Shown here in pieces: positions 5,511 to 33,243 of a DNA stretch of 34,040 nt. The notes under the pieces were generated by a model. It was not told the origin of the DNA. It did not search any database and was given only the letters and a program-made list of their open reading frames with translations. The stretch lies in contig JAIEPP010000711.1 of assembly GCA_019748335.1 (NCBI GenBank), positions 1 through 34,040 of the forward strand, read 5' to 3'. The first letter of the stretch is position 1. Every line of letters begins with the position of its first letter. This DNA comes from Xanthobacteraceae bacterium. Its GTDB lineage: Bacteria > Pseudomonadota > Alphaproteobacteria > Rhizobiales > Xanthobacteraceae. The translations under genes and the position numbers were made by a program.

Positions 5511-5516
5511 CCTGAT

Positions 5517-6693: not shown

Positions 6694-6747
6694 CGATGAT
6701 CCAACCACTTATTCGCAATCCCGAGGAGCATAGGGAATCGGGAGGCC

Positions 6748-9467: not shown

Positions 9468-9468
9468 C

Positions 9469-12316: not shown

Positions 12317-12377
12317 ACTGATGTTGGGTCCGCGAGCGCGACGCGACGTCGCGCGGCCGGGCTTTTGGAGCATTCGT

Positions 12378-15300: not shown

Positions 15301-15869
15301 GCGCAACGGCAGAGCGGCTGTGTGACCGTCCTGTCGATGACCGGGAGTTGGCGTCCTACCTGATGTATCCCAGGATCTATGCCGAGTACTGTTCCGCGGA
15401 AAGGAAGTATGGCCCGGTCTCGGCGTTGCCGACGAATGTATTCTTCTACGGGATGAAGCCCGGAGACGAAGTGTCGATCCAGATCGAGCTCGGGAAGATT
15501 CTGCTCGTGCGCTTCCAGGCGTTGACGGCCACAGACGAAGACGGTGAGGTGAAAGTCTTCTTCGAGTTGAATGGACAGCCACGAACAATAAAGGTTCCGG
15601 ATCGGACTTTCGCGGGAGAGCGAACCTCGCGTCGAAAAGCCGATGAGGACAATGAATGCCACGTCGCGGCGCCGATGCCGGGTACGATCTCGTCGGTGCA
15701 GGTGAGATCGGGCGACAGGGTCAAGGCGGGCGATACCTTGCTGACGCTGGAAGCCATGAAGATGGAGACCGCATTGCGGGCACCGCGCGACGGTACCGTC
15801 GCTGAAGTCGTTGTGAAGATCGCCGATAGTGTTGCCGCGCGCGATCTCGTCATCGTTCTCGATGGATGA
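12378..15869 (+). CDS. pyc: Pyruvate carboxylase (full-length BC-CT-BCCP)
   Basis: ORF 12321-15869; ATG 12378 or 12321. Biotin carboxylase domain (LLVANRGEIAIRIFRAAAELGIETLAV..., EVNPRIQVEHTVTEQVTG), carboxyltransferase domain (TTMRDAHQSLLATRVRT, ECWGGATFDVAMRFL, LALKDMAGLLKP), and C-terminal biotinyl motif LEAMKMETALRAP. Confidence 0.93.
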   Translation: MTAVTPDQPTRINRLLVANRGEIAIRIFRAAAELGIETLAVFADEDKLSLHRFKADEAYQIGRGADGTLRLGPLEAYLSIEEVIRIARMTKADAIHPGYGFLAESPELAEACAANGIVFVGPSPQTMRALGNKVSARELAVSVNVPVIPATGRLPADAPAIEQLARQIGYPLMVKASWGGGGRGMRSVESENELIDAVRAARREALAAFGKDEVYLEKLVRHARHVEVQILGDMHGNRLHLFERDCSVQRRNQKIIERAPDPYLDQTIRAALCEAALKLADATDYVGAGTVEFLMDVDTNSTYFIEVNPRIQVEHTVTEQVTGLDIVKAQIRIMEGGRLGLVDETGIPPQSEIRLNGHALQCRITTESPNNNFVPDHGRITAYRGAFGPGIRVDGGTAYSGAVVSPFYDSMIEKVTAWAPSSDEVVARMDRALREYRIRGIATNLEFLEAVVNHPKFRNSSYTTRFVDETPELYKAKTGRDRATRLLSYIADVSVNGHPQTRDRPRPVRFGSVLAPVISDREQSVETTRDILDRSGPAGLAHWMRDQKRLLVSDTTMRDAHQSLLATRVRTFDLVAAAPAYEKGLPNLLSLECWGGATFDVAMRFLTEDPWERLAAIRAAAPNMVTQMLLRGANGVGYTNYPDNVVRHFIRQTAAAGMDIFRIFDCFNWVENMRVAIDAVLGEGKVAEGAICYTGDILDPNRSRYSLNYYVALARELERAGCQILALKDMAGLLKPGAARVLVKALREAVGMPVRLHTHDTSGVAAATLLAAVDAGVDAVDVAMDAMSGTTSQPCFGSIVEAVRNTERDTGLDPKAIRAISSYWDRVRGQYTAFESDLRGGASEVYLHEMPGGQFTNLREQARSIGLEGRWDEVARAYRDANDLLGDIVKVTPSSKVVGDLALMMVAQNLAAADVVDPDIDIAFPASLVEMLRGDLGNPPGGWPDGIQTKVLQDQPATTVRPGSLIDAVDLDKERATAERLCDRPVDDRELASYLMYPRIYAEYCSAERKYGPVSALPTNVFFYGMKPGDEVSIQIELGKILLVRFQALTATDEDGEVKVFFELNGQPRTIKVPDRTFAGERTSRRKADEDNECHVAAPMPGTISSVQVRSGDRVKAGDTLLTLEAMKMETALRAPRDGTVAEVVVKIADSVAARDLVIVLDG

Positions 15870-15941: not shown

Positions 15942-16661
15942 TTATCTTGGGATGTTCGATTGCGGCTGCAACAGCGCCTGTACGAAAGCCTCTTGAGGTA
16001 GTGCGGTGGCCGGGTCCAGCCATCGGTTCCGGTGATAAGCAAGATAGGGGAGGTAGTGATCGTAAAGCCGCCTTAGTTCCGAAACGGCATCGATATGCAT
16101 ATCGATACGCAAGTCCAGTTCGGCAACGTCCCGCGTGCCATGGACAAGAATGGACGCCGAGCGTTCCGGTAGCGGGCCGGATGCGCCCTTTTGTCCGCCG
16201 GCGGTCCGGCCGCCTTCCAACGACCTGACCAGGCGCTCCGCGAGTGGCTCTCCGGCGGACTGTTCAAACGCCGAAGCCATCGCAAGCAGGACGTTCTCGC
16301 TCGCCAAAACGTTGCCAAAAACCGCGTAGTCGGTTCCGGACCGATGACCCGAGAACGCGCGCGTCGACGCGCCCGTGTAAACGGCGGTCCGGCCTTCGCG
16401 GTCCATGATGCCCACCTGCCGGAACTCGCGCAGCGGGTCGGCCTGCATCACGAGTTCGAGGGCGCTTGCCGCGGGGTGGCCGGCGGCAAGAAGGTTGATC
16501 GCCAATGGCCGCAGTTCGGGATTGACGAAAGCCTGGCTCGACATGGCGCCGACATGGCTCGCCGCCTGCGGACACAAGCCGCCGACGCCGAGCGAGTAGG
16601 TTGCGATCGCAACTCCGAGTTCGCCACTGCGGGGGCAACGTCCGATCACTGTGTAGGTCAA
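15942..16661 (-). CDS. DUF1028-family protein (Ntn-hydrolase-like)
   Basis: TTG start 16661 preceded by GAAGGAG 7 nt upstream. M-TYTVIGRCPRSGELGVAIATYSLGVGGLCPQAASHVGAMSSQAFVNPELRPLAINLL... has the DUF1028 pattern. Confidence 0.8.
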   Translation of the reverse strand: MTYTVIGRCPRSGELGVAIATYSLGVGGLCPQAASHVGAMSSQAFVNPELRPLAINLLAAGHPAASALELVMQADPLREFRQVGIMDREGRTAVYTGASTRAFSGHRSGTDYAVFGNVLASENVLLAMASAFEQSAGEPLAERLVRSLEGGRTAGGQKGASGPLPERSASILVHGTRDVAELDLRIDMHIDAVSELRRLYDHYLPYLAYHRNRWLDPATALPQEAFVQALLQPQSNIPR

Positions 16662-17653
16662 TACCGAACTCCTTCGAATAGGCTGGTTTCCGGGATTCCC
16701 TGGATCCGAATGCAAGCCGCATGGTGGGTTTCGCTCAGTGTCTTCCAGGGGGGATCGATTTGAGCGCAATCATCGATGGGGACCGGGCAGCGCGTTCGAA
16801 ACCGGCAGCCCGACGGCGGGTTGGCCGGACTTGGCAGATCGCCCCTGAGCACGATGCGCTCGCGTGTCCGTTCCATATCCGGGTCGGGAACCGGCACGGC
16901 GGAAAGCAGCGCCTTGGTATAGGGATGAGCGGCAGAACCGAAGATCTCGTGCTTGTCGGCGGTTTCGACGATGCGACCGAGATACATCACGGCAATCCGG
17001 TCACTGATGTGCCGAACGACGGACAAGTCGTGCGAGATGAAGAGGTAGGCTAGCCCCAGTTCTTTCTGAAGGTCCTGCATGAGATTGATGATCTGCGCCT
17101 GGATCGAGACGTCGAGCGCCGACACCGGCTCGTCGCAGACGATCAGCATGGGTTCGACCGCCAGCGCACGGCAGATCGCGACCCGCTGCGCCTGGCCTCC
17201 ACTCAGTTCATGCGGAAATCGCTGGAGCAGGCGCGCGGGAATACCAACGAGATCGAGCAGTTTTCGGATGCGTGGAAGGCGCGCCGTTCCCCGCGCCAAT
17301 CCGTGGATGTCGAGAGCTTCTCCGATCAGGTCGCCAACGGACATGCGCGGATCGAGCGAGGCCGCGGCATCCTGGAAAATGATCTGCAGCCGGCGGCGGT
17401 ACGGCCGCATTTCTCGTCGCGAGAGGCTGGCAATGTCGATCCCGTCCACGATCACGCGACCGGAGGTCGGTTTGATCAGTTGCAACAGGGAGTACCCCGT
17501 GGTGGATTTTCCGCAGCCGGACTCGCCGACCAGTCCGAGCGTCTTGCCCCGCTCGATGGTGAAACTGACGCCATCGACCGCTCGGACGCGCGCGCCGCCG
17601 GTTCCCGGAAACGACACGCAGAGATTTTCCACCTGAAGCAGCGGCGAGGTCAC
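16658..17653 (-). CDS. Peptide-type ABC transporter ATP-binding protein (DppF-like)
   Basis: GTG 17653 overlaps the upstream DppD stop (GTGA). VTSPLLQVENLCVSFPGTGG..., GESGCGKSTTGYSLL, LSGGQAQRVAICRALAVEPMLIVCDEPVSALDVS. Confidence 0.92.
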   Translation of the reverse strand: MTSPLLQVENLCVSFPGTGGARVRAVDGVSFTIERGKTLGLVGESGCGKSTTGYSLLQLIKPTSGRVIVDGIDIASLSRREMRPYRRRLQIIFQDAAASLDPRMSVGDLIGEALDIHGLARGTARLPRIRKLLDLVGIPARLLQRFPHELSGGQAQRVAICRALAVEPMLIVCDEPVSALDVSIQAQIINLMQDLQKELGLAYLFISHDLSVVRHISDRIAVMYLGRIVETADKHEIFGSAAHPYTKALLSAVPVPDPDMERTRERIVLRGDLPSPANPPSGCRFRTRCPVPIDDCAQIDPPWKTLSETHHAACIRIQGIPETSLFEGVRY

Positions 17654-18642
17654 GTCGTTTGTCTCCAGGAGCCCGTCAGGTCGGCAAAGCAGCTTGCCCA
17701 ATGCGCGGGCTGTTCCTCGATCAAGGCGGGCCGCTCGGTCCGGCAGCGGTCGACGCTATGGGCACAGCGTGGCAGGAAAGGACAGAGCGTCATGGGCCTG
17801 CTGAGGTCGGGCGGAAGTCCCTCGATCGGCCGGAGCCTCTCGCCGACCAGGTCGATGCGGGGCGTGCAGGACATCAGGCCCAGCGTATAGCCGTGCGAGG
17901 GCCGGTAAAACACGTCCCGGATCGGACCGCTTTCGACGATCCGCCCGGCGTACATAACGTTGACCCGGTCGCACAAATTGGCGACGAGACCGAGATCATG
18001 ACTGATCCAGATCACCGACGCCCCGATGTCCTTGACGAGCGTCTTGATCAGGTCGACGATTTGCGCCTGTACCGTCACGTCGAGCGCGGTCGTCGCCTCG
18101 TCTGCAATGAGAAGCGATGGATTGCATGACAAGGCAATCGCGATCATCACGCGTTGGCGCATTCCGCCGGAGAATTCATGCGGATATGCGCCGAGGCGCG
18201 ATTTCGCCATGGGGATACCGACCATCTCGAGCAGCTCGATCGCCCGGCGACGCGCGGCGGCTCCATCCAGCGCGAGATGCCGGCGCAAGGTTTCTGTGAG
18301 CTGCCGCCCGACCGAGAGCACCGGGTTGAGCGACCGCATCGGGTCTTGAAAGATCATGGCGATTCGTGCCGCCCGCACGTCGAGCATCTGGCGTTCCGAT
18401 AGCGCAAGAAGATCGATCCCGTCGAACCGCAGTTCGTCCGCCTCCACGGAGCCGGGTGGTTCCGGAATCAGCCGCATGATCGACATGGCGGTCATGCTCT
18501 TGCCGCTTCCGCTTTCGCCGACAAGGCCGAGTATTTCGCCCCGGTTCAGGGTGAACGACACGCCGTCGACAGCCCGCACGGTGCCACGGTCGGACCGAAA
18601 CGAAGTCCGCAGGTTATTGACGGTCAGAAGCGGCGAGGTCAT
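17650..18642 (-). CDS. Peptide-type ABC transporter ATP-binding protein (DppD-like)
   Basis: ATG 18642 overlaps the upstream DppC stop (ATGA). GESGSGKSMTAMSIMRL, FSGGMRQRVMIAIALSCNPSLLIADEATTALDVTVQ. Confidence 0.92.
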   Translation of the reverse strand: MTSPLLTVNNLRTSFRSDRGTVRAVDGVSFTLNRGEILGLVGESGSGKSMTAMSIMRLIPEPPGSVEADELRFDGIDLLALSERQMLDVRAARIAMIFQDPMRSLNPVLSVGRQLTETLRRHLALDGAAARRRAIELLEMVGIPMAKSRLGAYPHEFSGGMRQRVMIAIALSCNPSLLIADEATTALDVTVQAQIVDLIKTLVKDIGASVIWISHDLGLVANLCDRVNVMYAGRIVESGPIRDVFYRPSHGYTLGLMSCTPRIDLVGERLRPIEGLPPDLSRPMTLCPFLPRCAHSVDRCRTERPALIEEQPAHWASCFADLTGSWRQTT

Positions 18643-19562
18643 GTCGCGTTCGGCTCCTTGGCAGCCGGCCGGTGCGAACGCCACGACCGCGGCTGAAGCG
18701 CGTCGCGCAATCCGTCACCCAGGAAATTGATCGACATCACGCAGATCATGATCGCGGCCGTCGGGGCAAGGAACAGCCAGGGCGCATCGTTCATGAAACG
18801 GCGCGCCTCGGACAGATCGCGTCCCCAGGATGAAGCTGGCGGCTGAACGCCAAGGCCCAGGAAACTCAGCGAAGCTTCGGCAATCACCGCGGCGGAGAAG
18901 CCGATGGTAACCTGTACGACGATGGCCGACATAATATTGCCGAGGATGTGGCCAATGATGCGTCCGACACCGGCGCCCAAGGCCCGCGTCGCCGTAATGT
19001 AGGTCTCCTCCCGGACCGCCAGGGTGGCGGATCGCACGATACGGGCGAATACCGGCATTTGCACGATTCCCAGCGCCAGCATGACGTTCTGAACGTCGGG
19101 TCCGAGCAGGCCGACGATGGCGACACCGAGCAGAAGCGGGGGAAAGGTGAGGAAGCCGTCCATCAGCCGCATCAGGGTATTGTCCGTATTGCCGCCGGTG
19201 TAGCCGGAGATCAGCCCGACCGGGACGCCGGTTGCGAGTGCAAAAATGACGACGGTGAGGCCCACCGAAAGCGAAATGCGCGCGCCCCAGATCATGCGGG
19301 ACAGAACGTCACGGCCAAAATGGTCGGTGCCCAGCCAGTGAATCAATGAAGGTGGCCGCAGTTTTTCGGATAGTTTGATGGCGGCCGGGTCGAATGGCGC
19401 GATCAGCGGGGCTGCGATCGCGACCAGACAGATGACCAGAAGGCATACCAATCCCACCGTCGCGGCGCGATTCCGCAGGAACTGGCGAAACGCCAGTTGT
19501 CTGCCGGTTTCATTTCGGACGATCTCGATTTCCGTTTCCGCCGATGGCGATGAATAGGTCAC
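18639..19562 (-). CDS. Peptide-type ABC transporter permease (DppC-like)
   Basis: Likely GTG start 19562 inside longer ORF 18639-20306 (exact start uncertain); LRPPSLIHWLGTDHFGRDVLSRMIWGARISLSVG, ASLSFLGLGVQPPASSWGRDLSEARRF. Confidence 0.9.
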   Translation of the reverse strand: MTYSSPSAETEIEIVRNETGRQLAFRQFLRNRAATVGLVCLLVICLVAIAAPLIAPFDPAAIKLSEKLRPPSLIHWLGTDHFGRDVLSRMIWGARISLSVGLTVVIFALATGVPVGLISGYTGGNTDNTLMRLMDGFLTFPPLLLGVAIVGLLGPDVQNVMLALGIVQMPVFARIVRSATLAVREETYITATRALGAGVGRIIGHILGNIMSAIVVQVTIGFSAAVIAEASLSFLGLGVQPPASSWGRDLSEARRFMNDAPWLFLAPTAAIMICVMSINFLGDGLRDALQPRSWRSHRPAAKEPNAT

Positions 19563-19570
19563 GGCGGGCC

Positions 19571-20512
19571 TCAGTACCGAATTCGTGGATCGAGGACGGA
19601 ATAAAGGATGTCGGCGAGAATGTTGGTCAACAGGAAGAACGACGCGATGACGAGGGTGAAGCCCTGGATGACCGGGAAGTCGCGGTTGACGACGGCGTTC
19701 AGGATCGCCGTTCCCATTCCAGGGATTGCAAAGGTGTATTCGATCGTAACCTGGATACCGATGAGATAACCGAATTGAATGGCGATCATCGTTACGAACG
19801 GAATGAGCGCGTTCTTGAGCGCATGGACGACCAATACGGTACTGGGCATCAGTCCCTTCGCTCTTGCCGTGCGGATGTAGTCTTGCGAGAGCACATCGAT
19901 CATGGACGATCTGAGAAGTCGCGTCAGAACGGCCACTTGCAACATGCCCAATGCCAGGGATGGCAGCACATAGGGCGCGATCGACGCCCATAACGAACTG
20001 CTCGTGGCTCCAATTCCGGTTATCGGCAGCAACTGCAGCTTGACCGAGAGCACGAAGATCAGCACGAGCGCGAGCGCGAAGTTGGGGATCGAAAAACCGA
20101 TCAGGGTGACGCCGGTACAGAGATAGTCGACCCAGGTGTTGCGCCTCAGTGCGGAGATGATTCCGAGCGGAATCGATACCAGCACGGCAAACACCATGGC
20201 TGCCAGCGCGAGCCGGAAGCTGACGGGGAAGCGTTCCGTCAGCAGCGAAACGACGGATTGATTGAGGCGCACGGATCGTCCCAGATCGCCGTGCACGACG
20301 TCCCAAAGCCAGAGCAGATATTGCCGATAGAGGGGCTGGTCGAAGCGGAATTCATGACGAATCGCCGCAACGGCATCCGGCGACGTCTGCATGCCGAGCA
20401 TGATCTGGATCGGGTCTCCAGGAGTCGAACGTACGACGATGAAAATCGTAATCGTTACGACGACGAGAACGATCGGTATTTGACCCAGACGTCTGAAGAC
20501 GTAACGCCACAT
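19571..20512 (-). CDS. Peptide-type ABC transporter permease (DppB-like)
   Basis: ATG 20512 (MWRYVFRRLGQIPIVLVVVTITIFIVVRSTPGDPIQIMLG); VVHALKNALIPFVTMIAIQFGYLIGIQVTIEYTFAIPGMGTAI. Confidence 0.92.
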   Translation of the reverse strand: MWRYVFRRLGQIPIVLVVVTITIFIVVRSTPGDPIQIMLGMQTSPDAVAAIRHEFRFDQPLYRQYLLWLWDVVHGDLGRSVRLNQSVVSLLTERFPVSFRLALAAMVFAVLVSIPLGIISALRRNTWVDYLCTGVTLIGFSIPNFALALVLIFVLSVKLQLLPITGIGATSSSLWASIAPYVLPSLALGMLQVAVLTRLLRSSMIDVLSQDYIRTARAKGLMPSTVLVVHALKNALIPFVTMIAIQFGYLIGIQVTIEYTFAIPGMGTAILNAVVNRDFPVIQGFTLVIASFFLLTNILADILYSVLDPRIRY

Positions 20513-20606
20513 CTTTTGCGACCTATCGCTCTCCCATGCGCATTGCGACGGCAATGCCGATGACCGCAAAAAGGTTAGGCAGGTGAAGAGTCTCAGTAAA
20601 AGCGGT

Positions 20607-21548
20607 TTATTTCGATGTAGCCGATGCTCTGACGGCATCGACGGGCATGACAGGGAAGGGAAGTCCGGACAGTTCTTCGCGAATGGTCAGAAGAAAAGCT
20701 TCCGCTGCGAGAGGCAACTTGCGTTCCTTCAGGGTGATGACGCTGACGTCACCCCGGAAGTCGTCGCCTTCCACCGGAATCGCACAAAGTTCCTTGTTCT
20801 TGAAGGACGACATGCCGGCATGTCTCAACATCAGGGTGATGCCGGTTCCGCCGAGTGCGAAGCGATGCATCAGCTCGACGGAATTGGTTTCCAGCGCCGG
20901 CTTGATGATGACGCCCGCTTTGGCGCACCCCTTGTCGAAAATCACGCGTGAACTCGACCGCGGCGGCGCCAGTGCGATCGGCCAATTGGCCAATTCCGTT
21001 ATGCTGATGCTCTTGAATTTCGCTAATGGATGGTCAGGCGTCATCGTGGCCAGCAGCGGTTCGCTCGAATTGTAGTCGACGTGGATCTCGTCGCTGAACT
21101 CGCCGCCAAACGTCAATCCGATGTCGACGTCGCCTTCGCAGACGGTATCGAGAACCTTATCGGACGTCAGGATGTCGACCGAGAAGTTGATGTTGGGATG
21201 CTTGGCCCGAAAAGCATCGATCGCGTTGCAGAGGACCGAGGTCACTGCGGATTCCATCGAGGCCAGGCGAACCCTGCCTCGTCTCAGGCCCTTCAGTTCG
21301 TCGATCTCGGAATACAGCCGCTCGATCGCGAAGGTCGAATTGAGACAGTAGGAGTAGAGAAGCTCGCCGGCTTCGGTCAGGGCAACGCCGCGTGGTTTTC
21401 GTTCGAACAGCGGCGTGCCGACCTGATACTCCAGCGCCTGCAGGCGCCGGCTGACGGCCGATTGCGCGATGTTCAGTTCGCCGGAGGCGGCCCGGATCGA
21501 ACCGTGCCGGGCGACGGACATGAGATACCGCAAGGAGGTCTTCAACAT
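20607..21548 (-). CDS. LysR-family transcriptional regulator (LysR-2)
   Basis: ORF 20607-21557; ATG 21548 (MLKTSLRYLMSVARHGSIRAASGELNIAQSAVSRRLQALEYQVGTPLFERKPRGVALTEAG) or GTG 21557. C-terminal LysR effector domain. Confidence 0.92.
   Translation of the reverse strand: MLKTSLRYLMSVARHGSIRAASGELNIAQSAVSRRLQALEYQVGTPLFERKPRGVALTEAGELLYSYCLNSTFAIERLYSEIDELKGLRRGRVRLASMESAVTSVLCNAIDAFRAKHPNINFSVDILTSDKVLDTVCEGDVDIGLTFGGEFSDEIHVDYNSSEPLLATMTPDHPLAKFKSISITELANWPIALAPPRSSSRVIFDKGCAKAGVIIKPALETNSVELMHRFALGGTGITLMLRHAGMSSFKNKELCAIPVEGDDFRGDVSVITLKERKLPLAAEAFLLTIREELSGLPFPVMPVDAVRASATSK
20621..20640. promoter_or_regulatory. Putative LysR-type operator (site C): CCGATGCT-CTGAC-GGCATCG
   Basis: ATGCT-N5-GGCAT at 20624-20638, T20625-N11-A20637. 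Nearly identical to site A (CCGATGCCTTGACGGCATCGA vs CCGATGCTCTGACGGCATCGA, 2 mismatches). Lies in the last codons of LysR-2, ~110 bp upstream of the permease genes. Confidence 0.5.
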
Positions 21549-21564
21549 TGGCTTCACCGGTCAG

Positions 21565-21579
21565 ATGCCATTTTGGCAT
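21565..21579. promoter_or_regulatory. Putative LysR-type operator (site D): ATGCCATTTTGGCAT
   Basis: 6-bp perfect arms, T21566-N11-A21578, 16 bp upstream of the LysR-2 ATG (21548). Confidence 0.6.
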
Positions 21580-21731
21580 AGGGCGAAGAAAATATTGCCA
21601 CTCTTCGGCATACCGTGCACGGTGTTTCTTGTCATCCCGGTGTCATTCTCGTGGTATCGCTCCGGAACGTATAGATTCGAAATATCAAGTAAATTCAAAT
21701 ACTTGTCTATTTGGCGGTGTCTTCCAACGAA

Positions 21732-21754
21732 AAGGCCGGGCTGAGCCCGGCCTT
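21732..21754 (-). terminator. Rho-independent-type terminator of SBP-2: AAGGCCGGGC-TGA-GCCCGGCCTT
   Basis: 10-bp perfect stem. On the - strand it is followed by TTTTCGTT, 21 bp after the SBP-2 stop. Confidence 0.8.
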
Positions 21755-21775
21755 CCCAAGAAGCGAATGTGTTCG

Positions 21776-23341
21776 TCACGCCGACCAGGTCGTGGCGTCG
21801 TGCAGCTCGACATATTCCTGCGGAGAAGGTTTGAAGCCGGTCAGGCGCTTGTCGAAGATCTGCACCATGTTGACGTTGCAGTGATAAACCAGCGGGCAGT
21901 CCTCCAGCGTACGGTCGACGATCTGGTGGTAGAGCCCTTCTCGTTTCTCGGGATCCGACTCGGCCCGCGCGCTGTCGGTGAGGGCGTCCATCTCCGGATT
22001 GTTCAGTCCACTCGATGAGCCCTTGCTGTTGAGGAACCACCAACTCGTCGCATCCGGATCGGGCGCTACCAGAGTGATGTCCTCAAGGTGCTGCTCGAAT
22101 TTCTGGTTGAGCCAGAGGTTGTTGAAGCCGCCCATATCAAGGTTTCGGATCTTGTAGTTGATGCCGATCTGGCTGACCATTGCGGCAACCAGTTCGAGTT
22201 CGCGCCGCAGCCAATCCTTGTCGCTGGTTATTACCTCGACTTCGTAACCCTTGACGCCGGCCTGGGCCATCAGGGCTTTCGCCTTGTTCAAATCGCCGTT
22301 CTTTGGATAGCGCTGCAGCGACGCGCGGTGGCCGAGATACCCCTTCGGGATCTGATTGTCGGTGATATTTGCCTCGCCATTATAGATTTCCTTGACGATC
22401 GCTTCCCGGTCGATCGCGTAGGAGATGGCCTGACGGACAAGCTTGTTCTGGAACGGGGCCTTCGGATCGCCCTTCAGATTGAACTGCTGGTAATCCCAAT
22501 TCCATCCGGGTGTGCGAACCGTGGTATAATTCGTATTCTTGGCGGCGTCGGCGACCTCCCGCGACTCCGGATGGGTCATGAAGTCGAGTTCGCCGCGCAT
22601 CAATGCCTGCAGCCGCACGCTGGAATCCGGCACGGCGCGGTACATCAGCTTGTCGAGCTTTGGGAAACCCGGTCGCCAATATTCCGGATTACGAACCAGC
22701 TCCAGTTCGTTGCCCCGCAGGGTCTCGACCATGTACGGACCCTGTCCGATCGGCTTGGCGCTGTAAGCCTGGTTGCCCATCTCCTTGTGAGCATTCTGCG
22801 AGATAATCATGCCGCCGTATCCCATCGCGACGCCGGGGAATGCGCCAAATGGTCGCTTGGTCTTCACCTCGACGACATACTTGCCGTCGGCCTTGATGGT
22901 ATCGAGCGCGAACAGCGCAAATCCGACCTGGAAGCTTTTCGATTCCAGATGATATCGCCAAGTGTAAACCAGATCTTCGGCGGTCATCTCGCCAAAGCCG
23001 CGGTGCCACTTCACGCCTTCACGCAGTTTGATGCGCCAGACGTCGGGCGCGGTGTTGGTCCATTCCTCTGCGATATGCGGGATGATCTTTCGATTCTCGT
23101 AGTCGATCCTGACAAGATTATCGAAGATGTTGAGCATCGGAAGGCCGGCCTGGATATCCCAGCGGACGACCGGACTGATGTTGCCGAAGTCGCCACCCCA
23201 GATTCCGATCCGCATGTCCCGGCGAGCCGATTGAGCAATCGCGGGCGCACCTGGAAACGTGAGCGCTGCGGCGGCAGACGCGGCGCCCTGCAACAGCTGC
23301 CGACGTGAAGGTCCGCTCCGCAGCTTAAACGTGTCTGTCAT
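21776..23341 (-). CDS. ABC transporter substrate-binding protein, family 5 (SBP-2), probable Tat/twin-arginine signal
   Basis: ORF 21776-23365, start at MTDTFKLRSGPSRRQLLQGAASAAAALTFPGAPAIAQS (RR motif). EGVKWHRGFGEMTAEDLVYTWRYH, PIGQGPYMVETLRGNELELVRNPEYW typical SBP_bac_5. Confidence 0.92.
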   Translation of the reverse strand: MTDTFKLRSGPSRRQLLQGAASAAAALTFPGAPAIAQSARRDMRIGIWGGDFGNISPVVRWDIQAGLPMLNIFDNLVRIDYENRKIIPHIAEEWTNTAPDVWRIKLREGVKWHRGFGEMTAEDLVYTWRYHLESKSFQVGFALFALDTIKADGKYVVEVKTKRPFGAFPGVAMGYGGMIISQNAHKEMGNQAYSAKPIGQGPYMVETLRGNELELVRNPEYWRPGFPKLDKLMYRAVPDSSVRLQALMRGELDFMTHPESREVADAAKNTNYTTVRTPGWNWDYQQFNLKGDPKAPFQNKLVRQAISYAIDREAIVKEIYNGEANITDNQIPKGYLGHRASLQRYPKNGDLNKAKALMAQAGVKGYEVEVITSDKDWLRRELELVAAMVSQIGINYKIRNLDMGGFNNLWLNQKFEQHLEDITLVAPDPDATSWWFLNSKGSSSGLNNPEMDALTDSARAESDPEKREGLYHQIVDRTLEDCPLVYHCNVNMVQIFDKRLTGFKPSPQEYVELHDATTWSA

Positions 23342-23458
23342 TATCCTCTCCATCTTTCGGACCACCGCGACGACACCGCGGATGCATCTTCAACTGTAGC
23401 CTTGATTCAGTGGATCACCGCGAGGACGTGTCGAACAGCGCCGTGATTCGTACGCGGT

Positions 23459-23704: not shown

Positions 23705-24784
23705 ATGAACATCACGACGACTGCCTCGAAGAGCCGCCAAGGCTCGAACAAGATTTCAACGGCCGACTTTGTCGGAGAAGCCATCGATCAGGTGATTACG
23801 GTTGAGGCAAAGAACCCCGGCCTGCCACACAACGTGACTCGGACCTTTTACAACGCGGCACGGGCATTGGTCGGCGATCGTCCGATCTCGATGGTTGCCG
23901 CCGAGAGCATCATCAAATCGGTTTCCCCGGGAGACACCGTGCTGATCCTCACGGGCGCTGGATATCCTCCCCACATGCCCAAGGGCGAAGACGACGGCCC
24001 TCCCGGTGCGGCGTCGCTGGCGATGGCCTTGTGGAAGGGAATCGGTGCGGTACCGGTGTTCGTCTGCGAACCCTGCCATGTCGACCCGATCGTTGCGTCG
24101 AGCATGGCGGCCGGTCTGATGATCAAGGACTCCTTCAAGGATGCGCGGGATCGCCGTCTCGGTGCGGCACTTGCCATTTCGCCGAGGAAGCAGACGGAAG
24201 TGAAAGGCTGGGTCGAGAAGATCTTTGCGGAAATGAAGCCCAAGGCGGTCGTGACCGCTGAGCGGCTTGGACCCGCCGCTGATGGCTTCCTCTACAACCT
24301 GACGGCACAGGCCTATATGGGACCTGAAACGACCGTCGAGCACGAGGTCATCGACATTTCGCAGATCGTTACCATGGCGAAGGAAAAGGGCGTCCTCAGC
24401 ATCGGCATCGGCGATCACGGCAACGAGATCGGATTCGGCCGTATCGTCGAGACCGTGGCTGCCGCGATGCCTAACGGCGACCGGCTCTGTACCCGGGTAG
24501 GCACCGACATTCTGCTTCCCGCGATGATGTCGAACTGGGGCTGCTATGGCATCGAGGCCGCCCTGGCTTTCCTGCTCAAGAAGCCGAAGCTGGTGCATTC
24601 CCCTGCCCAGGAGGAACGCATCATCCGTGCCTGCCAGATGGCCGGTGGTATCGACGCGATCTATGCCAGCACCGAATTCGGTGTCGACGGTCTGGACGGC
24701 GAGACGTCGATGGCCTGCATGCAGTTCCTCGGCAATATCGTTCGCAAGTCGCTCGAGGATCCGGACACGGGCGCAGCGCACTAG
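23705..24784 (+). CDS. D-glutamate cyclase-like protein (DUF4392 domain)
   Basis: DGPPGAASLAMAL, VVTAERLGPAADGFLYNL and SIGIGDHGNEIGFG match motifs recalled for the DUF4392/DGLUCY C-terminal domain. Confidence 0.78.
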   Translation: MNITTTASKSRQGSNKISTADFVGEAIDQVITVEAKNPGLPHNVTRTFYNAARALVGDRPISMVAAESIIKSVSPGDTVLILTGAGYPPHMPKGEDDGPPGAASLAMALWKGIGAVPVFVCEPCHVDPIVASSMAAGLMIKDSFKDARDRRLGAALAISPRKQTEVKGWVEKIFAEMKPKAVVTAERLGPAADGFLYNLTAQAYMGPETTVEHEVIDISQIVTMAKEKGVLSIGIGDHGNEIGFGRIVETVAAAMPNGDRLCTRVGTDILLPAMMSNWGCYGIEAALAFLLKKPKLVHSPAQEERIIRACQMAGGIDAIYASTEFGVDGLDGETSMACMQFLGNIVRKSLEDPDTGAAH

Positions 24785-24885
24785 TCGGCAGACGCGGCGA
24801 CGGGCGGCAGAACCGTCCGTTGCCGCAGCCGCTTGCTTTGCTGGACTTGTCTAAACCTCCAAGACTCAAAAAAGAGAATAAGAAA

Positions 24886-27042
24886 ATGAACCAGGAAATC
24901 CGCCCGCGGCCAAACGGTTCGGCGGCCGGGAACGAAAAGACATTGGTTCGCCTGGCCGCGGATATCGGCGGAACATTTACCGATATCGTTCTCGAGGTCG
25001 GCGACAAGCGCCTGACCAGGAAAATCTTGACGACGGCGAAATATCCGGAATTGGGCGTCATGAACGGCGCCGGACTGGCGCTGGACGAGGCCGGCCTGAC
25101 CTACGCCGACATCGACATTTTCGTCCATGGCACGACCTTGGCGACCAACGCCGTGCTCGAGCGAAGTGGCGCGACGACGGCTCTGATCGCGACTGAAGGT
25201 TTCCGCGATGTCATCGAGATCGGTACCGAAGGACGGTTCGATCAGTATGATCTCCAGATCGAAAAGCAGGTTCCGCTGGTGCCGCGCTCGTTGCGACTGA
25301 CCGTTCGTGAACGGATCGATTCGCGCGGAAATGTTCTGGTCGAACTGGACGAGGCCGCGCTTGCCGATCACGCACGGCGCTTGGAGAAAGAAAAGATCGA
25401 GAGCATCGCCATCTGCTTCATCCACGCCTATGCGAACGGCGAGCACGAGCGGCGCGCGCGCGACATCCTTGCCGGCGCGCTCCCGAATGTCCCGATCTCG
25501 ATCTCGTCGGAAGTCTGCCCCGAAATCCGCGAATACGAGCGGACCTCCACGACGGTTGCCAACGCCTACGTCCGTCCGCAGATGGCGGATTACCTCGCGC
25601 GCATGAAATCGGCGTTGTCGCGCGTGAAATTCAAGGGGGTCATCTACCTGGTGACGTCGAACGGAGGCCTGACCTCACTGGAGACCGCGCGCCGTTTCCC
25701 GGTCCGGCTCATCGAATCCGGCCCGGCCGGCGGGGCGATATTCGCCGCCGATATTGCGGCGCGCCTTGACGAACGAAGCGTGCTGTCGTTCGACATGGGC
25801 GGAACCACCGCAAAGATGTGCCTGATCGAGAATCTGCGTCCGGACACGGACCGCGTCTACGAGGTTGACCGCGCGGCGCGCTTTCAGAAAGGCAGCGGGC
25901 TTCCCCTGCGCATCCCGGTGATCGACCTCGTCGAGATCGGCGCCGGCGGGGGCTCGATTGCCCACGTCGATTCCCTGAAGAACGTCATGGTTGGGCCGCG
26001 AAGTGCCGGATCGCAGCCGGGACCGGCCTGCTATGGGTTGGGCGGAACGCTTCCGACGGTTACCGATGCCGATGCCGTGCTTGGACTGATCGAACCCGCG
26101 GCATTTGCCGGTGGAACGGTCGAACTCGACCTTGCTGCCGCCACGACGGCGCTTGAGGACCATGTTGGACAGCCCTTGCAGATGTCCGCCGAACTGGCCG
26201 CCTATGCCGTCCACGAAATGGTCTGCGAAAGTATGGCGAGCGCCGCGCGGGTTCACGCGATCGAGAAGGGGAAGACCACGGCCAATCACACCATGATCGC
26301 ATTCGGCGGCGCCGCGCCTCTGCATGCGGCGCGCGTCGCCGAAAAGATAGGTGTCCGCCGCGTCGTGATTCCGCAGAATGCCGGCGTCGGCTCGGCGGTA
26401 GGTTTTCTCAGGGCGCCGATCTCCTACGAACTCGTGCAAAGCCGGCACGCGTTGGTGGAGACACTCGAGTACTCCGGCATCTCCGAGATGCTGCATCAAA
26501 TGGAGCGGGAAGCGCGGCTGCTGGTCGAAGAGGGGGCCGGGGACGCGCCGCTGAAGACCCGCAAGCTCGCTTTCATGCGATATGTCGGCCAAGGCCACGA
26601 GATCGCGGTCTCGATTCCCGATCGGGATCTGACGGAGAACGATCGTGAAACCCTGGCGAGGGATTTCGAAGACACCTATACGCGGTTGTTCAATCGAACC
26701 ATTCCCGGGGCCGCCAAGGAAATCCTGAGCTGGTCGGTTCTTGTCACAGCGGAGAGCGCGGATAGACTGGGTCCCATCGCGCAAGTGACGGCTGTGGAAG
26801 GGACGGCGGTGGCGCACCGGGTCCGGCGCTTCTTTGATGGACGCAAGGGGACGCATATCGAGCTGCCGCTCTTCGAGCGGGAGGCGCTCGCCGCAGGAGT
26901 CAGGATCAGCGGACCGGCTCTGATCTCGGAGCGTGAAACGACCACCTTCGTATCGGCCGCGTTCGATGCTCACATCGACCGCCACGGCAATATCGTGTTG
27001 AACCGCAATCAACCCGCCGGAAGCAAAAATGCAGCAAATTGA
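24886..27042 (+). CDS. Hydantoinase/5-oxoprolinase family subunit A (HyuA-like)
   Basis: ATG 24886 (MNQEIRPRPNG). RLAADIGGTFTDIVLE, HGTTLATNAVLERSG, FDMGGTTAKMCLI, GAGGGSIAHVDSLKNVMVGPRSAGSQPGPACYGLGGTLPTVTDA. Confidence 0.92.
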   Translation: MNQEIRPRPNGSAAGNEKTLVRLAADIGGTFTDIVLEVGDKRLTRKILTTAKYPELGVMNGAGLALDEAGLTYADIDIFVHGTTLATNAVLERSGATTALIATEGFRDVIEIGTEGRFDQYDLQIEKQVPLVPRSLRLTVRERIDSRGNVLVELDEAALADHARRLEKEKIESIAICFIHAYANGEHERRARDILAGALPNVPISISSEVCPEIREYERTSTTVANAYVRPQMADYLARMKSALSRVKFKGVIYLVTSNGGLTSLETARRFPVRLIESGPAGGAIFAADIAARLDERSVLSFDMGGTTAKMCLIENLRPDTDRVYEVDRAARFQKGSGLPLRIPVIDLVEIGAGGGSIAHVDSLKNVMVGPRSAGSQPGPACYGLGGTLPTVTDADAVLGLIEPAAFAGGTVELDLAAATTALEDHVGQPLQMSAELAAYAVHEMVCESMASAARVHAIEKGKTTANHTMIAFGGAAPLHAARVAEKIGVRRVVIPQNAGVGSAVGFLRAPISYELVQSRHALVETLEYSGISEMLHQMEREARLLVEEGAGDAPLKTRKLAFMRYVGQGHEIAVSIPDRDLTENDRETLARDFEDTYTRLFNRTIPGAAKEILSWSVLVTAESADRLGPIAQVTAVEGTAVAHRVRRFFDGRKGTHIELPLFEREALAAGVRISGPALISERETTTFVSAAFDAHIDRHGNIVLNRNQPAGSKNAAN

Positions 27043-28684
27043 CGCAAGCGCGAGTATCGACCTCCAGGTCATGTGGCATCGATTGATCGCAATCGTCGAG
27101 GAGCAGGCTCAGGTCCTGATACGAACGGCGTTCAGTCCTATCGTGCGGGAATGCGCCGACCTTTCCGCCGGGGTCTTCGACACCAGCGGTAACATGCTGG
27201 CGCAGGCGATTACGGGTGCTCCCGGCCACGTCAACACCATGGCGGAATCGGTGCGGCATTTCATGCGTCGCTATCCGCTGCAAACGATGCAGCCGGGCGA
27301 CGTGTTCATCACCAACGATCCCTGGAAAGGAACCGGCCACCTCAACGATTTTGTGGTCGTAACGCCCTGTTTCAGGAACGGCAGGGCGGTGGCGCTGTTC
27401 TGCTGCACCAGCCACGTCATGGACATCGGTGGGCTCGGTTTCGGTCCCGACGGCTCCGACGTTTACATGGAGGGCCTTCACATTCCGATGCTCAAGTTGT
27501 TCGAGCGGGGGCAAGTCAACGAAACGTTGATGGCGATGATCTGCGGCAATACCCGCCAGGAGGTCGAGACGGAAGGGGATACCTACGCGCTTGCCGCCTG
27601 TAACGATGTCGGCGCCACGCGTTTGCTGGAAATGATGGAGGAGTTCGAGATCGACGATCTCGAGGCACTTTCTTCGCACGTGCTGTCGCGTTCGCGCGAG
27701 GCGATGATTTCGGAGATCAGCAAGTTGCCGAAAGGTACTTGGAAAAACAGCATGACGGTCGATGGTTACGATACCCCGATCGTACTGTCGGCAACGCTGA
27801 CGATCTCCGACGAGGGTATCCACGTCGATTATTCCGGTTCGTCCGCACAGTCTCCGCGGGGCATCAACGTCGCCATCAACTACACCGCAGCCTACACCAT
27901 GTTCGGGCTTGCATGTGCCATTGGCGGACGGATTCCGAACAATTCGGGTTCGCTCTCGATGTTTACGATCACCGCGCCCGAGGGGTCGGTATTGAACGCA
28001 CTGAAGCCGGCACCGGTGTCGACGCGGCATGTAATCGGGCAGATGCTCCCGGATGTGGTGTTCGGATGTCTTCGCCAGGTGGTGCCCGATCGCGTGCCGG
28101 CGGAAGGCGCCTCGTCGGTTTGGTTGATCACGATGCGCGGGGAAACCGCCGATGGGCGCTCGGGCCGTTACGGCTTTACGGTAGGCTTTACCAGCAATGG
28201 CGGCACTGGCGCGAGGAGTGGCAAGGACGGTTTGTCCGCGACCGCGTTCCCGACCAGTCTATCGGGAACGCCGGTGGAGATCGCCGAGACGCAGACGCCG
28301 TTGCTGTTCTGGCGCAAGGAACTGCGCGAAGGATCCGGCGGTGCGGGCAAGACTCGCGGCGGTCTCGGTCAGGTGCTGGAAATCGAATCGGCCTGCAACA
28401 AGCCGTTCCAGGTTCTCGCTTCCTTCGATCGTATCTCGTTCGCAGCCCGTGGCCACGAAGGTGCTGATGACGGATCGGCGGGCTTTATCGGACTGAAGTC
28501 GGGACAGAAGCTGAAGGGCAAGGGGGCTCAGGAGGTGGAAGCCGGGGAACGGCTGATCCTGATGACACCTGGCGGTGGGGGCCGGGGGAATCCGCGGTCG
28601 CGTGCACAGGAAGATGTGGCGCGCGACGTCCGGGACGGGCTGATTTCCATCGAGGTCGCCAGATCGGTGTATGGCGCGCGATAG
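27029..28684 (+). CDS. Hydantoinase/5-oxoprolinase family subunit B (HyuB-like)
   Basis: Overlaps HyuA by 14 bp. VLIRTAFSPIVRECADLSAGVFDTSGNMLAQA, GDVFITNDPWKGTGHLNDFVVVTP, GGGGRGNPRSR. Confidence 0.92.
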   Translation: MQQIDASASIDLQVMWHRLIAIVEEQAQVLIRTAFSPIVRECADLSAGVFDTSGNMLAQAITGAPGHVNTMAESVRHFMRRYPLQTMQPGDVFITNDPWKGTGHLNDFVVVTPCFRNGRAVALFCCTSHVMDIGGLGFGPDGSDVYMEGLHIPMLKLFERGQVNETLMAMICGNTRQEVETEGDTYALAACNDVGATRLLEMMEEFEIDDLEALSSHVLSRSREAMISEISKLPKGTWKNSMTVDGYDTPIVLSATLTISDEGIHVDYSGSSAQSPRGINVAINYTAAYTMFGLACAIGGRIPNNSGSLSMFTITAPEGSVLNALKPAPVSTRHVIGQMLPDVVFGCLRQVVPDRVPAEGASSVWLITMRGETADGRSGRYGFTVGFTSNGGTGARSGKDGLSATAFPTSLSGTPVEIAETQTPLLFWRKELREGSGGAGKTRGGLGQVLEIESACNKPFQVLASFDRISFAARGHEGADDGSAGFIGLKSGQKLKGKGAQEVEAGERLILMTPGGGGRGNPRSRAQEDVARDVRDGLISIEVARSVYGAR

Positions 28685-28692: not shown

Positions 28693-29622
28693 GTGTCGGA
28701 TCGGCTCAACGAACTCGACGTCTCGCTCCTGATGGCGCTGGACGCCCTGCTGATCGAACGTAATGTCAGTCGTGCGGCACATCGTCTTGGCATCACACAA
28801 CCGGCGCTCTCCGGTCGGCTCGGCCGGCTGCGGGTGCTATTCGACGATCGGATGTTCGTGCCGATCGCCGGTCGGGGCGTGACCCCGACACCCCGCGCGG
28901 TAGGGGTCGAGAAGAACCTGACAAAGGTCCTGGCGCAGTTGCGGGAGCTTGTCGGGCCGGAACAGGCGTTTGATCCCCAGCTGGATGAACGGACATTCGT
29001 CGTCGCCGCTTACGACAATCCGGCCGCGATGCTTGCGCCGGAATTGCTGCCGAGCTTCAAGGTTGACGCGCCGCGCGTCCGATTGGCATTCGTGTTGCCC
29101 GATCATGACAAGCTGGCGATAGAGCTGGAACGGGGTGATATCGATCTGTTTGTCGGTGTCATCAAGCACCAGCATCCTGATCTGCTGAGTCGGACGTTGT
29201 TCGAGGAGGAATGGATGACCGCCCAGCGGCGCGGACATCCCCGTGGCAGAGTGAGACCGACCCTGGACGAATTCTGTGAACTCGACCACCTTCTGATCTC
29301 GGCCGAAGGCGCCGAATTCACCGGAATGGTGGACCGGGAGCTTGCCAAACTTGGCCGGAAGCGACATGTGAGCATTTCGATACAGAGCTACGCCCTTGCT
29401 CCGCTGATGATTGCGAACAGCGATTGTCTGTGTACCCTGCCAAGGCGATTTCTGCAGCGCTTCGAGCCTCTGCTCGAGCTGTTTGAGCCGCCGCTGGAAC
29501 TCGGTCGTTTCCGTCTTCAGGCGCTCTGGCACCGTCGCATGCAGGATGATGCAGCGCACCGCTGGATCCGCGAGCGAATTTTTGCGGCGGCCGCGGCGCA
29601 GGTTTCCCAAGCGTCAATCTGA
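28693..29622 (+). CDS. LysR-family transcriptional regulator (LysR-3; NodD/NahR-like subtype)
   Basis: GTG start; LNELDVSLLMALDALLIERNVSRAAHRLGITQPALSGRLGRLRVLFDDRMFV...GVTPTPRA is the NodD/NahR-type N-terminus. Confidence 0.9.
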   Translation: MSDRLNELDVSLLMALDALLIERNVSRAAHRLGITQPALSGRLGRLRVLFDDRMFVPIAGRGVTPTPRAVGVEKNLTKVLAQLRELVGPEQAFDPQLDERTFVVAAYDNPAAMLAPELLPSFKVDAPRVRLAFVLPDHDKLAIELERGDIDLFVGVIKHQHPDLLSRTLFEEEWMTAQRRGHPRGRVRPTLDEFCELDHLLISAEGAEFTGMVDRELAKLGRKRHVSISIQSYALAPLMIANSDCLCTLPRRFLQRFEPLLELFEPPLELGRFRLQALWHRRMQDDAAHRWIRERIFAAAAAQVSQASI

Positions 29623-30601: not shown

Positions 30602-31765
30602 TTAGCCCGGCAGCCGGTTCCGGACGATCTCGCTCCACAGCGACATGCCAAAGGGCAGCACGTCGTCGTTGAAATTATAGGCCGGGTGGTGGAGCGACTC
30701 CGAGTCTCCATTTCCGATCAGGATGAACGCCCCCGGGCGCTCCAGCAGGAATTCTGCGAAGTCTTCCGATCCCATCTGCGGAGCGATATTGGTGTCGACA
30801 TGTTCCTCACCGACGAGTTGAGCGGCAGCTTCCGCAAAATAGCCGCTGCAGCCAGCCTCATTTACCATTGCCGGTATCGTGTGCCTGTAGGTGACCATTG
30901 CCCTTGCACCGTATGAGTGGGCCGTCGCCTCTGCGATCATGCGCATTCGTCCTTCGCAGAACTTGCTCGCTGCCGCAGTCAGGGTTCGAACCGATCCGGA
31001 CAGGCGACCGAACTGCGGAATGACGTTATCAGCCTCGCCGGCGTGTATCTGGCAAGCGGAAATGACGACGGCGTCCCTTGGGTCGACATTTCTGGCGACG
31101 ATCGTCTGCAGCGCATTCACGATGGCAGCCAGAACAACGACCGTGTCGACGGCCTTGTCCGGCGTGGCGGCGTGACCGCCCTTTCCCTCGATCTCGATCG
31201 TGAACGAGTCGAACGCCGCCATAATCGAGCCGGTCCGTATAGCGAAGCTGCCAACCGGAATACCCGGCCAGTTGTGCATACCGTAGATCTCGTCGATGCC
31301 GAAGCGCTTCATCAAACCATCGTCGATCATCGCGCGGGCACCACCGGCGCCACCTTCCTCCGCCGGTTGAAACACGAGGATGACCGTCCCCGAAAAGTCT
31401 CGGACTTCGGCGAGGTATCTTGCGGCCCCCAGCAGCATCGAGCTGTGTCCGTCGTGGCCGCAGGCATGCATCAGGCCCGGGACGCGCGATCGATAGGGCA
31501 GATTCGTTTGCTCCGTGATCGGGAGGGCGTCCATGTCCGCGCGCAGGCCGACCGTCCGGCTGCCGGCCGTGCCGCGGCCTTTGATGATGCCGACGACGCC
31601 GGTTCGTCCCAATCCCTCGATAACATCGTCGCAACCGAACTCGCGAAGACGTTGCGCCACGAAGGCCGCGGTGTTCTGGACGTCAAACTCCAATTCCGGA
31701 TTTTCGTGCAGATGATGCCGCCATGAGATGACGTCCGGCAATAGCTCAGAAATGCGCTCCAGCAT
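30602..31765 (-). CDS. M20-family amidohydrolase/aminoacylase (hippurate hydrolase-like)
   Basis: ISWRHHLHENPELEFDVQNTAAFV, LRADMDALPI, MHACGHDGHSSMLLGAARYLAE, VFQPAEEGGAGGARAMIDDGL, GSEDFAEFL. Confidence 0.93.
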   Translation of the reverse strand: MLERISELLPDVISWRHHLHENPELEFDVQNTAAFVAQRLREFGCDDVIEGLGRTGVVGIIKGRGTAGSRTVGLRADMDALPITEQTNLPYRSRVPGLMHACGHDGHSSMLLGAARYLAEVRDFSGTVILVFQPAEEGGAGGARAMIDDGLMKRFGIDEIYGMHNWPGIPVGSFAIRTGSIMAAFDSFTIEIEGKGGHAATPDKAVDTVVVLAAIVNALQTIVARNVDPRDAVVISACQIHAGEADNVIPQFGRLSGSVRTLTAAASKFCEGRMRMIAEATAHSYGARAMVTYRHTIPAMVNEAGCSGYFAEAAAQLVGEEHVDTNIAPQMGSEDFAEFLLERPGAFILIGNGDSESLHHPAYNFNDDVLPFGMSLWSEIVRNRLPG

Positions 31766-31846
31766 CGATCTGTCTCCAGGAAAGCTGGCCGTAGCACCCC
31801 CCCAAGGAAGCGCGACCGCTTCGCAGTTCCGGCCATTGGTAAAAAG

Positions 31847-31873
31847 GGACCACCGACCGAAGGTCGGTGGTCC
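31847..31873 (-). terminator. Strong hairpin GGACCACCGACC-gaa-GGTCGGTGGTCC, T-tract on - strand
   Basis: 12-bp perfect stem with 3-nt loop. The - strand reads ...GGTCGGTGGTCCCTTTTTACC. Located 82 bp upstream of the M20 start. Confidence 0.65.
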
Positions 31874-32181
31874 GAGTCTTGGGAGGAAACGCAGATGCCG
31901 TCCCTATCAAGAAAGGCATGAGCGGCACTGGCTTAGCATCCCAGGCGGAACTGACCAGCGCAGAATGGAGAACGGACCGATGCCAGCCGCGCAACGGCGG
32001 GTGAAAACCGGGATCAGGCTGCACTGCTGCCGATCGGAGTCTGGCCAACGACAAGTCTCGGTGACCGGCTCCGAAGTTGGCATTGCCATGGCGGCAACGC
32101 CCCGCCGCCGAAATTGTGCTTTTCATGCGTTCGCGCGTGGGCAAAGTGATCGGATGGTCCGCCAACCCCACATGGTTTCTA

Positions 32182-33243
32182 ATGCATAACGCAATCCCGG
32201 TCTTTGACGGCCACAACGACGTCCTCCTGAGGCTCTTGAAGTCGACGTCGGGTGATCCGGTCTCGGACTTTCTCCAAGGCGAGGAGCGGGGACATATCGA
32301 TCTGAAAAAGGCAAAGGCTGGGTCGCTGGTAGGAGGCCTGTTCGCGCTGTATTCGCCGTCCACGTCCGAACCGCTTGCGTTTTCCCGTCAAATGGCCGGC
32401 GGACAATACAAGCTGCCGTTGCCGCCTCGTCTGAGTCTTGAGGAGGCAAGAAATCCGATCCTCTCGATGCTGGCGACGCTGCTGAAGATCGAGAGATCGT
32501 CGCTCGGAGGCGTGGCGATCTGTCGGACCGTCAAGGAAATCAGGTCGACGATCGCGCGTGGCGCGCTCGCCGTGGTGCTGCATATCGAGGGCGCCGACGC
32601 GATCGATGCGAATCTCGATCTGCTTGAGCTTCTCTATGCGGCCGGTTTGCGTTCGCTCGGGCCGGTCTGGAGTCGGGACAATATCTTTGGCCACGGCGTT
32701 CCCTTTCATTTCCCTTCGGGGCCGGATATCGGCGAAGGCTTGACGGCCGATGGCGAGCGACTTGTCAAAGTCTGCAACGACAAGCGTATCCTGGTCGATC
32801 TGTCGCACATCACCGAGAAGGGATTTTGGGATGTCGCCCGTCTCAGCCATGCTCCCTTGGTCGCCACCCATTCCAATGCCCATGCGCTGTGCCCATCACC
32901 CCGAAATCTCACCGATAAGCAGCTCGCGGCGATCAGGGAGACCAAGGGCATCGCCGGCTTGAATTTCGCGACGTGTTTTCTGAGACCGGATGGCAGCATG
33001 CGGCCCGATACCGAGGTCGACTTGATGGTCAGGCAAATCGATTATCTGATCGAAAAGCTCGGAGAGGACCACGTCGGATTGGGCTCGGATTTCGACGGTG
33101 CTGTCGTGCCGGAGGCGATTGGTTCGGCCGCCGGCCTGCAGGTCCTGTTCGAGGCATTACGAAAGCGCGGCTACACCGATCCGTTGTTGCGAAAAATCGG
33201 CTCGGAAAACTGGCTGGCCGTTCTGGAAAGAACCATCGGCTGA
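32182..33243 (+). CDS. M19-family (membrane/renal) dipeptidase-like
   Basis: ATG 32182 (MHNAIPVFDGHNDVLLRLL). M19 motifs DGHND, VLHIEGADAI, VDLSHITEKGFWDVA, ATHSNAHAL, VGLGSDFDGA. Confidence 0.92.
   Translation: MHNAIPVFDGHNDVLLRLLKSTSGDPVSDFLQGEERGHIDLKKAKAGSLVGGLFALYSPSTSEPLAFSRQMAGGQYKLPLPPRLSLEEARNPILSMLATLLKIERSSLGGVAICRTVKEIRSTIARGALAVVLHIEGADAIDANLDLLELLYAAGLRSLGPVWSRDNIFGHGVPFHFPSGPDIGEGLTADGERLVKVCNDKRILVDLSHITEKGFWDVARLSHAPLVATHSNAHALCPSPRNLTDKQLAAIRETKGIAGLNFATCFLRPDGSMRPDTEVDLMVRQIDYLIEKLGEDHVGLGSDFDGAVVPEAIGSAAGLQVLFEALRKRGYTDPLLRKIGSENWLAVLERTIG

Follow-up and report, generated by a model that had tools for sequence, protein, structure and literature searches.

Gene content of the locus

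The stretch of DNA studied here (hereafter the window) comprises positions 1 to 34,040, 34,040 nucleotides in all, of contig JAIEPP010000711.1 from a soil bacterium of the Xanthobacteraceae (assembly GCA_019748335.1), whose genome is 80.7% complete and 3.5% contaminated, in 711 contigs. It carries a gene for a stand-alone DUF4392 protein, followed by those of the two subunits of a hydantoinase/oxoprolinase (HyuA and HyuB). Divergent from them lies a block with the gene order DUF1028-OppFDCB-LysR-SBP5 (15942–23365, minus strand), where SBP5 is the substrate-binding protein of an Opp-type importer (Table 1). Stand-alone DUF4392 proteins are found in bacteria and archaea and the same domain makes up half of the animal D-glutamate cyclase (DGLUCY); the domain alone offers a way to learn which half of that enzyme does the chemistry.

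A preliminary description of the locus, made from the sequence alone, had proposed that DUF4392, HyuA and HyuB form a module leading from D-glutamate to 5-oxoproline and on to glutamate. We find this interpretation partly supported. The identities and positions of the three genes were confirmed by profiles above cut-off (with a revised start for HyuA), as was their shared plus strand. What had been overlooked is the divergent block with LysR, SBP5, OppBCDF, and DUF1028, the partner conserved beside DUF4392 in close relatives.

Table 1. Features of the DUF4392–HyuAB locus and of the divergent importer block.
Feature	Position	Strand	Evidence
DUF4392 / GLUCM-like_C (PF14336), 359 aa, single domain	23705..24784	+	PF14336 profile, ligand mapping, AlphaFold model
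HyuA, Hydantoinase/oxoprolinase A, ATPase-type subunit	24886..27042 (probable start; ORF opens at TTG 24820)	+	PF05378, PF01968, PF19278 above cut-off
HyuB, Hydantoinase B/oxoprolinase	27029..28684	+	PF02538, 490 bits
LysR-family regulator, GTG start, 8 bp after HyuB	28693..29622	+	HTH_1 + LysR_substrate
SBP_bac_5 substrate-binding protein (SBP5), Tat-like signal, divergent from DUF4392	21776..23365	-	PF00496, 260 bits
LysR regulator, homologous to DUF4392-divergent LysR of relatives	20607..21557	-	216–267 bits to LysR of L057–L060
OppB/DppB-type permease	19571..20638	-	NCBIfam Opp2B 311 bits, below its cut-off
Open reading frame (ORF) with OppC/DppC-type permease in C-terminal half	18639..20306 (true start probably internal)	-	NCBIfam Opp4C over residues 270–540
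OppD-type ATPase	17650..18684	-	NCBIfam and comparison with relatives
OppF-type ATPase	16658..17701	-	NCBIfam and comparison with relatives
DUF1028 (PF06267) protein, end of transporter block	15942..16769	-	PDB relative 2IMH

The DUF4392 protein

The protein matched the PF14336 profile with 192.7 bits (E 1.3e-56) against a cut-off of 27.9, which upholds the earlier assignment to DUF4392. The crystal structure of TON_0340 from Thermococcus (PDB 4FC5/5GL4) has six acidic metal ligands (E59, D61, E115, D157, E161, and D246; PMC5132392), which align with E95, D97, E186, D237, E241, and D328 of the window protein and are all intact in 126 of the 131 DUF4392 homologues collected. An AlphaFold2 model built from seven sequences (pLDDT 87.5, pTM 0.90) retrieved TON_0340 as all of its top solved structures (5GL2/4FC5, E ~3e-20, TM 0.88 by target length; Foldseek), so that the motifs described earlier as preserved are indeed so. 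We propose that the protein is a two-metal (Mn2+-type) enzyme.

TON_0340 is the only stand-alone DUF4392 protein characterized, and the activity reported for it is that of a weak Mn2+-dependent phosphatase (PMC5132392); it is likewise a single domain with the same fold and ligands, although only ~25% identical to the window protein. Mammalian DGLUCY (9030617O03Rik) has the DUF4392 domain in common with it, but as part of a two-domain DUF1445+DUF4392 protein, and it was on this two-domain mouse protein that the conversion of D-glutamate to 5-oxo-D-proline was measured (PMC5339696). Pfam applies the name D-Glu_cyclase to DUF1445. As the preliminary description had noted, DUF1445 is absent from the window, both in the DUF4392 protein and elsewhere, and the single copy in the genome lies on another contig (C625). 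The same genome (6.5 Mb) holds one DUF4392 gene and three HyuB genes, and PxpA was not found in it.

HyuA, HyuB, and their subfamily

The DxGGT and DMGGT motifs of HyuA align with D11 and D295 of CapA, the ATP-site aspartates of caprolactamase, and the Asp-His-Asp-His metal site of HyuB is intact, D44, H104, D107, and H129 aligning with the ligands D41, H99, D102, and H124 of CapB (6YRA; PMC8453981). The pair thus has the architecture, ATP-site aspartates and metal ligands seen in CapAB of P. jessenii (PDB 6YRA) and in N-methylhydantoinase (PDB 7HK5). However, the best NCBIfam matches, CapA and CapB, reached 475 and 213 bits against equivalog cut-offs of 1000; the best-scoring models for both subunits describe lactamase subunits, all below cut-off, and gave no substrate name.

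HyuA probably starts at ATG 24886, as judged from the sequence, which leaves a gap of ~101 bp between DUF4392 and HyuA; the HyuA and HyuB reading frames share 14 bp, and a LysR gene begins 8 bp after HyuB. The codirectional DUF4392, HyuA and HyuB genes probably form one operon. The promoter sites (E and F) invoked earlier for such an operon did not hold up, since a sigma-70-like promoter scan gave two sites compared to 2.8 in shuffled sequences, that is, chance level, and none ahead of DUF4392. Rfam and tRNA scans gave no matches.

In the HyuB tree the subfamily of the window forms a clade of its own (support 100/100), the closest HyuB of the plasmid collection being that of Terrarubrum (67% identical). 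Elsewhere its members are generally found without DUF4392, in the neighborhood of aminotransferase, KdgD, aldehyde dehydrogenase, RidA, amino-acid transporter, xanthine dehydrogenase, Asp/Glu racemase, TctC, and other genes. S. meliloti has both subfamilies, the DUF4392 and HyuAB of the window, ~6 kb apart and in a gene order that differs from that of the window, and in S. medicae HyuAB is missing at the corresponding position (tblastn). As the PLSDB gene table is incomplete, the absence of HyuAB at plasmid loci was checked by tblastn, for L177 and L181–L190 only. A kinship of the window HyuAB with the DUF4392-linked HyuAB of other phyla was considered and rejected, the two falling in different HyuB clades.

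Genome G270 (locus L042) was likewise rejected as a second case of the same linkage: its HyuB falls outside the clade of the window, and the DUF4392 copy from it that entered the tree groups with the second-copy type. Two abutting DUF4392 copies lie at this locus (8677–10410), one of which seems to be truncated or frameshifted. The locus also has remains of an Opp transporter and a HyuA-HyuB pair that belongs to a different subfamily, upstream in the same orientation.

The LysR-DUF4392-importer clade

In a tree of 127 DUF4392 domains, the window protein grouped with copies linked to Opp importers, both in a group of five sequences (support 99) and in one of twelve (SH-aLRT 100). The members of this clade have a LysR gene beside one to three copies of DUF4392 and divergent from them, together with an importer, which is SBP5-OppBCDF in L057–L062, TctABC in L063–L065, S. 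meliloti, Roseinatronobacter, and Devosia, and TRAP in L041/L056 and Sagittula. None of the nearest relatives of the window DUF4392 has an adjacent HyuAB. Judged from these neighborhoods, what is conserved as a functional unit is LysR + DUF4392 + importer.

The closest DUF4392 proteins (57–59% identity) come from LysR-DUF4392(x2–3)-SBP5-OppBCDF clusters of Reyranella (L057), two Enhydrobacter-labeled metagenome-assembled genomes (L058 and L059), and a member of Rhizobiales (L060). Window positions 16658–23365 repeat this pattern with the same LysR, SBP5, and Opp families, but the relatives carry one or two additional DUF4392 copies and are devoid of HyuAB. L060 even shares the layout of the window, OppFDCB-SBP5-LysR lying on one strand with DUF4392 divergent, and a second DUF4392 occupies the place that HyuAB takes in the window. 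DUF1028 also lies beside DUF4392 in four close relatives (L057, L058, L059, and L066); the solved relative of this family has an Ntn-hydrolase fold. As a separate observation, L057 (1322–8934), L058, and L059 carry DUF1028 in arrays, four to six genes each, that adjoin the LysR-DUF4392-Opp cluster. Within the genus, PF14336 was detected in 19 of 272 genomes, including that of the window.

DUF4392 neighborhoods at large

We surveyed 104 DUF4392 loci, 24 from whole-genome surveys and the 80 named loci that came closest to the query profile, and therefore the survey is biased toward the kin of the window and Bacillota. Neighbors were counted within 6 kb of DUF4392, on genes from a simple gene caller with family names that rest on HMMER or BLAST matches. 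On the same strand as DUF4392 we found DUF1445 in 29 loci, aminotransferase IV in 20, PxpBC in 19, and PxpA in 17. An ATP-dependent oxoprolinase-family gene was present in 23 of the 104, either PxpABC (19 loci) or HyuAB (four, counted by HyuB), never both, and 20 of these 23 also contained DUF1445. Overall, this supports a general link of DUF4392 to glutamate/5-oxoproline metabolism. Open-access literature held nothing useful on a DUF4392-hydantoinase linkage, DUF1028, or agropinic-acid hydantoinase genes.

Two arrangements resemble the window in part. In Bacillota (e.g., L109, L119, or L125) the order is aminotransferase IV-DUF4392-PxpBC-DUF1445-PxpA, so that DUF4392 also adjoins an ATP-dependent oxoprolinase-type enzyme, although this is PxpABC instead of HyuAB, DUF1445 and the aminotransferase are present and the DUF4392 belongs to another clade. 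In Methylomirabilota (L087 and L098) HyuAB and DUF4392 lie close together on one strand as in the window, but in the order DUF1445-HyuA-HyuB-DUF4392, with DUF1445 present and with both HyuB and DUF4392 from other clades. At these two loci (L087, 4827–10912; L098, 1563–7474), where HyuAB replaces PxpABC, a protein of ~210 aa without assignment is encoded between HyuB and DUF4392. The expected conserved linkage of DUF4392 to HyuAB is present for the two families at large and largely absent for the subfamilies of the window. Two working hypotheses emerge from the survey. One is a LysR-DUF4392-importer clade in which three types of importer can replace one another; the other is a Bacillota clade in which DUF4392 is tied to DUF1445, PxpABC, and an aminotransferase.

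Other DUF4392 loci showed further features. A conserved protein of ~440 aa without Pfam match is encoded beside or between DUF4392 genes (L106, 8697–10028), with homologues in L035, L036, L068, L069, L071, L081, L095, L101, L114, and L132; it adjoins aldehyde dehydrogenase and 3-hydroxyisobutyrate-dehydrogenase-like genes and its profile matches PDB 2AEU (MJ0158, E 2e-50), which suggests a pyridoxal phosphate (PLP)-type fold. In L051 (4880–15601, minus strand) a giant ORF of 3573 aa contains two DUF4392 domains, one of them with some metal ligands lost (ENEDER vs EDEDED), and adjoins a DUF1445 gene.

A putative role for the locus

We tentatively read the locus, at somewhat less than an even chance, as a cluster under LysR control that imports and degrades a small glutamate-type amide or peptide, HyuAB included. 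The compound would be taken up by the SBP5 protein and OppBCDF and trimmed by DUF1028, possibly an amide hydrolase, and DUF4392 would act on the imported acid or on a breakdown product, the leading guess being the interconversion of a D-glutamate-like acid and its lactam. HyuA (with ATP) and HyuB (with its metal) would open the ring of a lactam or another cyclic amide, with ATP spent. What the sequence shows is the gene content, the metal- and ATP-site residues, the conserved grouping of LysR, DUF4392, and importer, and the wider linkage of DUF4392 to oxoprolinase genes; transcription as one operon, the nature of the substrate, the sequence of reactions, and the reaction catalyzed by DUF4392 are what we infer from it. 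The evidence that carries this reading is the 12-sequence clade with LysR, DUF4392, and importer, with the layout of L060 and the recurring DUF1028; the family-wide same-strand link to DUF1445, PxpABC, and aminotransferase IV, with no Pxp+Hyu locus; and the tight HyuA-HyuB-LysR spacing, along with metal ligands kept across the DUF4392 family. HyuAB itself is apparently a lineage-specific addition, since no second DUF4392 copy was found here and the place behind DUF4392 that several relatives fill with another copy is taken by HyuAB.

Several observations weigh against this import-and-degradation reading. Among the relatives collected, these DUF4392 and HyuAB subtypes are adjacent only on this contig, and the DUF4392 type of the window appeared in no other of the 272 genus genomes searched, which, with a genome that is 80.7% complete, 3.5% contaminated, and in 711 contigs, makes a recent acquisition or a misbinned contig possible. 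The 101-bp gap ahead of HyuA leaves room for separate transcription. Finally, the ligand class of SBP5 cannot be read from its sequence, its best solved relatives binding various peptides, heme, or opines.

The unique adjacency would also fit chance neighbors brought together by a recent rearrangement, with two unrelated routes, one of DUF4392 and the Opp importer and the other of HyuAB and its LysR acting on a hydantoin or lactam of its own. HyuAB has this regulator only 8 bp downstream, the gap separates it from DUF4392, and elsewhere it accompanies xanthine dehydrogenase and Asp/Glu racemase, or aminotransferase and KdgD. We consider this doubtful, since a chance adjacency of codirectional, closely spaced genes would be rare a priori with only three HyuB genes in 6.5 Mb, and since the two subfamilies are also in proximity in S. 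meliloti, in a different order, and analogous DUF4392-HyuAB loci exist in Methylomirabilota and G270. Rather unlikely, in turn, is the module first proposed, in which DUF4392 would convert D-glutamate to 5-oxo-D-proline and HyuAB, with ATP, 5-oxoproline to glutamate. At the level of the families it draws support from the many loci with DUF1445, PxpABC, and aminotransferase IV, from the gene order of Methylomirabilota, from the lactamase-type (below cut-off) NCBIfam matches of HyuAB, and from the eukaryotic-type 5-oxoprolinase, a known bacterial alternative that can stand in for PxpABC (PMC13274462), PxpA not having been found in this genome. This support does not extend to the gene pair of the window, whose HyuAB falls outside the DUF1445/DUF4392-linked subfamily and has its kin in other pathways. 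DUF1445 is unlinked here, and the mouse enzyme assays do not separate the two domains. Moreover, a cyclase and an ATP-dependent ring opener of the same stereochemistry would presumably run a futile cycle unless there is epimerization or another lactam. As the DUF4392 of the relatives travels with the importer and not with HyuAB, the D-glutamate pathway is to be taken as a hypothesis.

Two further possibilities seem improbable to us. One is an opine-type cluster, in which an N-substituted pyroglutamate (agropinic-acid-like) would be imported, HyuAB would open its lactam, and DUF4392 would take the released glutamate-type acid. Opp-type transporter genes of a Ti plasmid do lie beside a FAD oxidoreductase and HyuA-HyuB, AgaA, which we take to be an opine-type binding protein, ranks among the solved proteins closest to SBP5, and octopine/nopaline-dehydrogenase-family genes occur near DUF4392 in L063, L041/L056, and Sagittula. 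But identity to the Ti-plasmid HyuA and HyuB is low (35% and 30%), the window HyuAB has no FAD oxidoreductase beside it, SBP5 is equally near to peptide-binding proteins, and our assumption that the Ti-plasmid genes serve agropinic acid found no support in the literature search. The other, an equally long shot, is that DUF4392 and DUF1445 catalyze different steps, one cyclizing D-glutamate and the other epimerizing or processing 5-oxoproline, with PxpABC or HyuAB interchangeably finishing a D- to L-glutamate salvage; the window would then be a transporter-coupled version with DUF4392 acting on an imported glutamate-type lactam.

The wider window

Further out, the window contains a second SBP5-OppBCDF set and a glutathione S-transferase gene. 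At 12321–15869 lies a gene for a pyruvate-carboxylase-like protein of 1182 aa (biotin carboxylase/HMGL-like/PYC_OADA/biotinyl domains), with a best match of 47% and no close homologue among the 12 relatives searched, which may be a sign of foreign DNA. Genes for gamma-glutamyltranspeptidase (GGT), M24 peptidase, M20 peptidase, and M19 dipeptidase flank the locus (1627–6764 and 30602–33243), and these surroundings would fit a peptide or gamma-glutamyl catabolic region. In S. medicae (L186) an SBP5-GGT-OppBCDF-M20 cluster is located ~7–15 kb from its own DUF4392.

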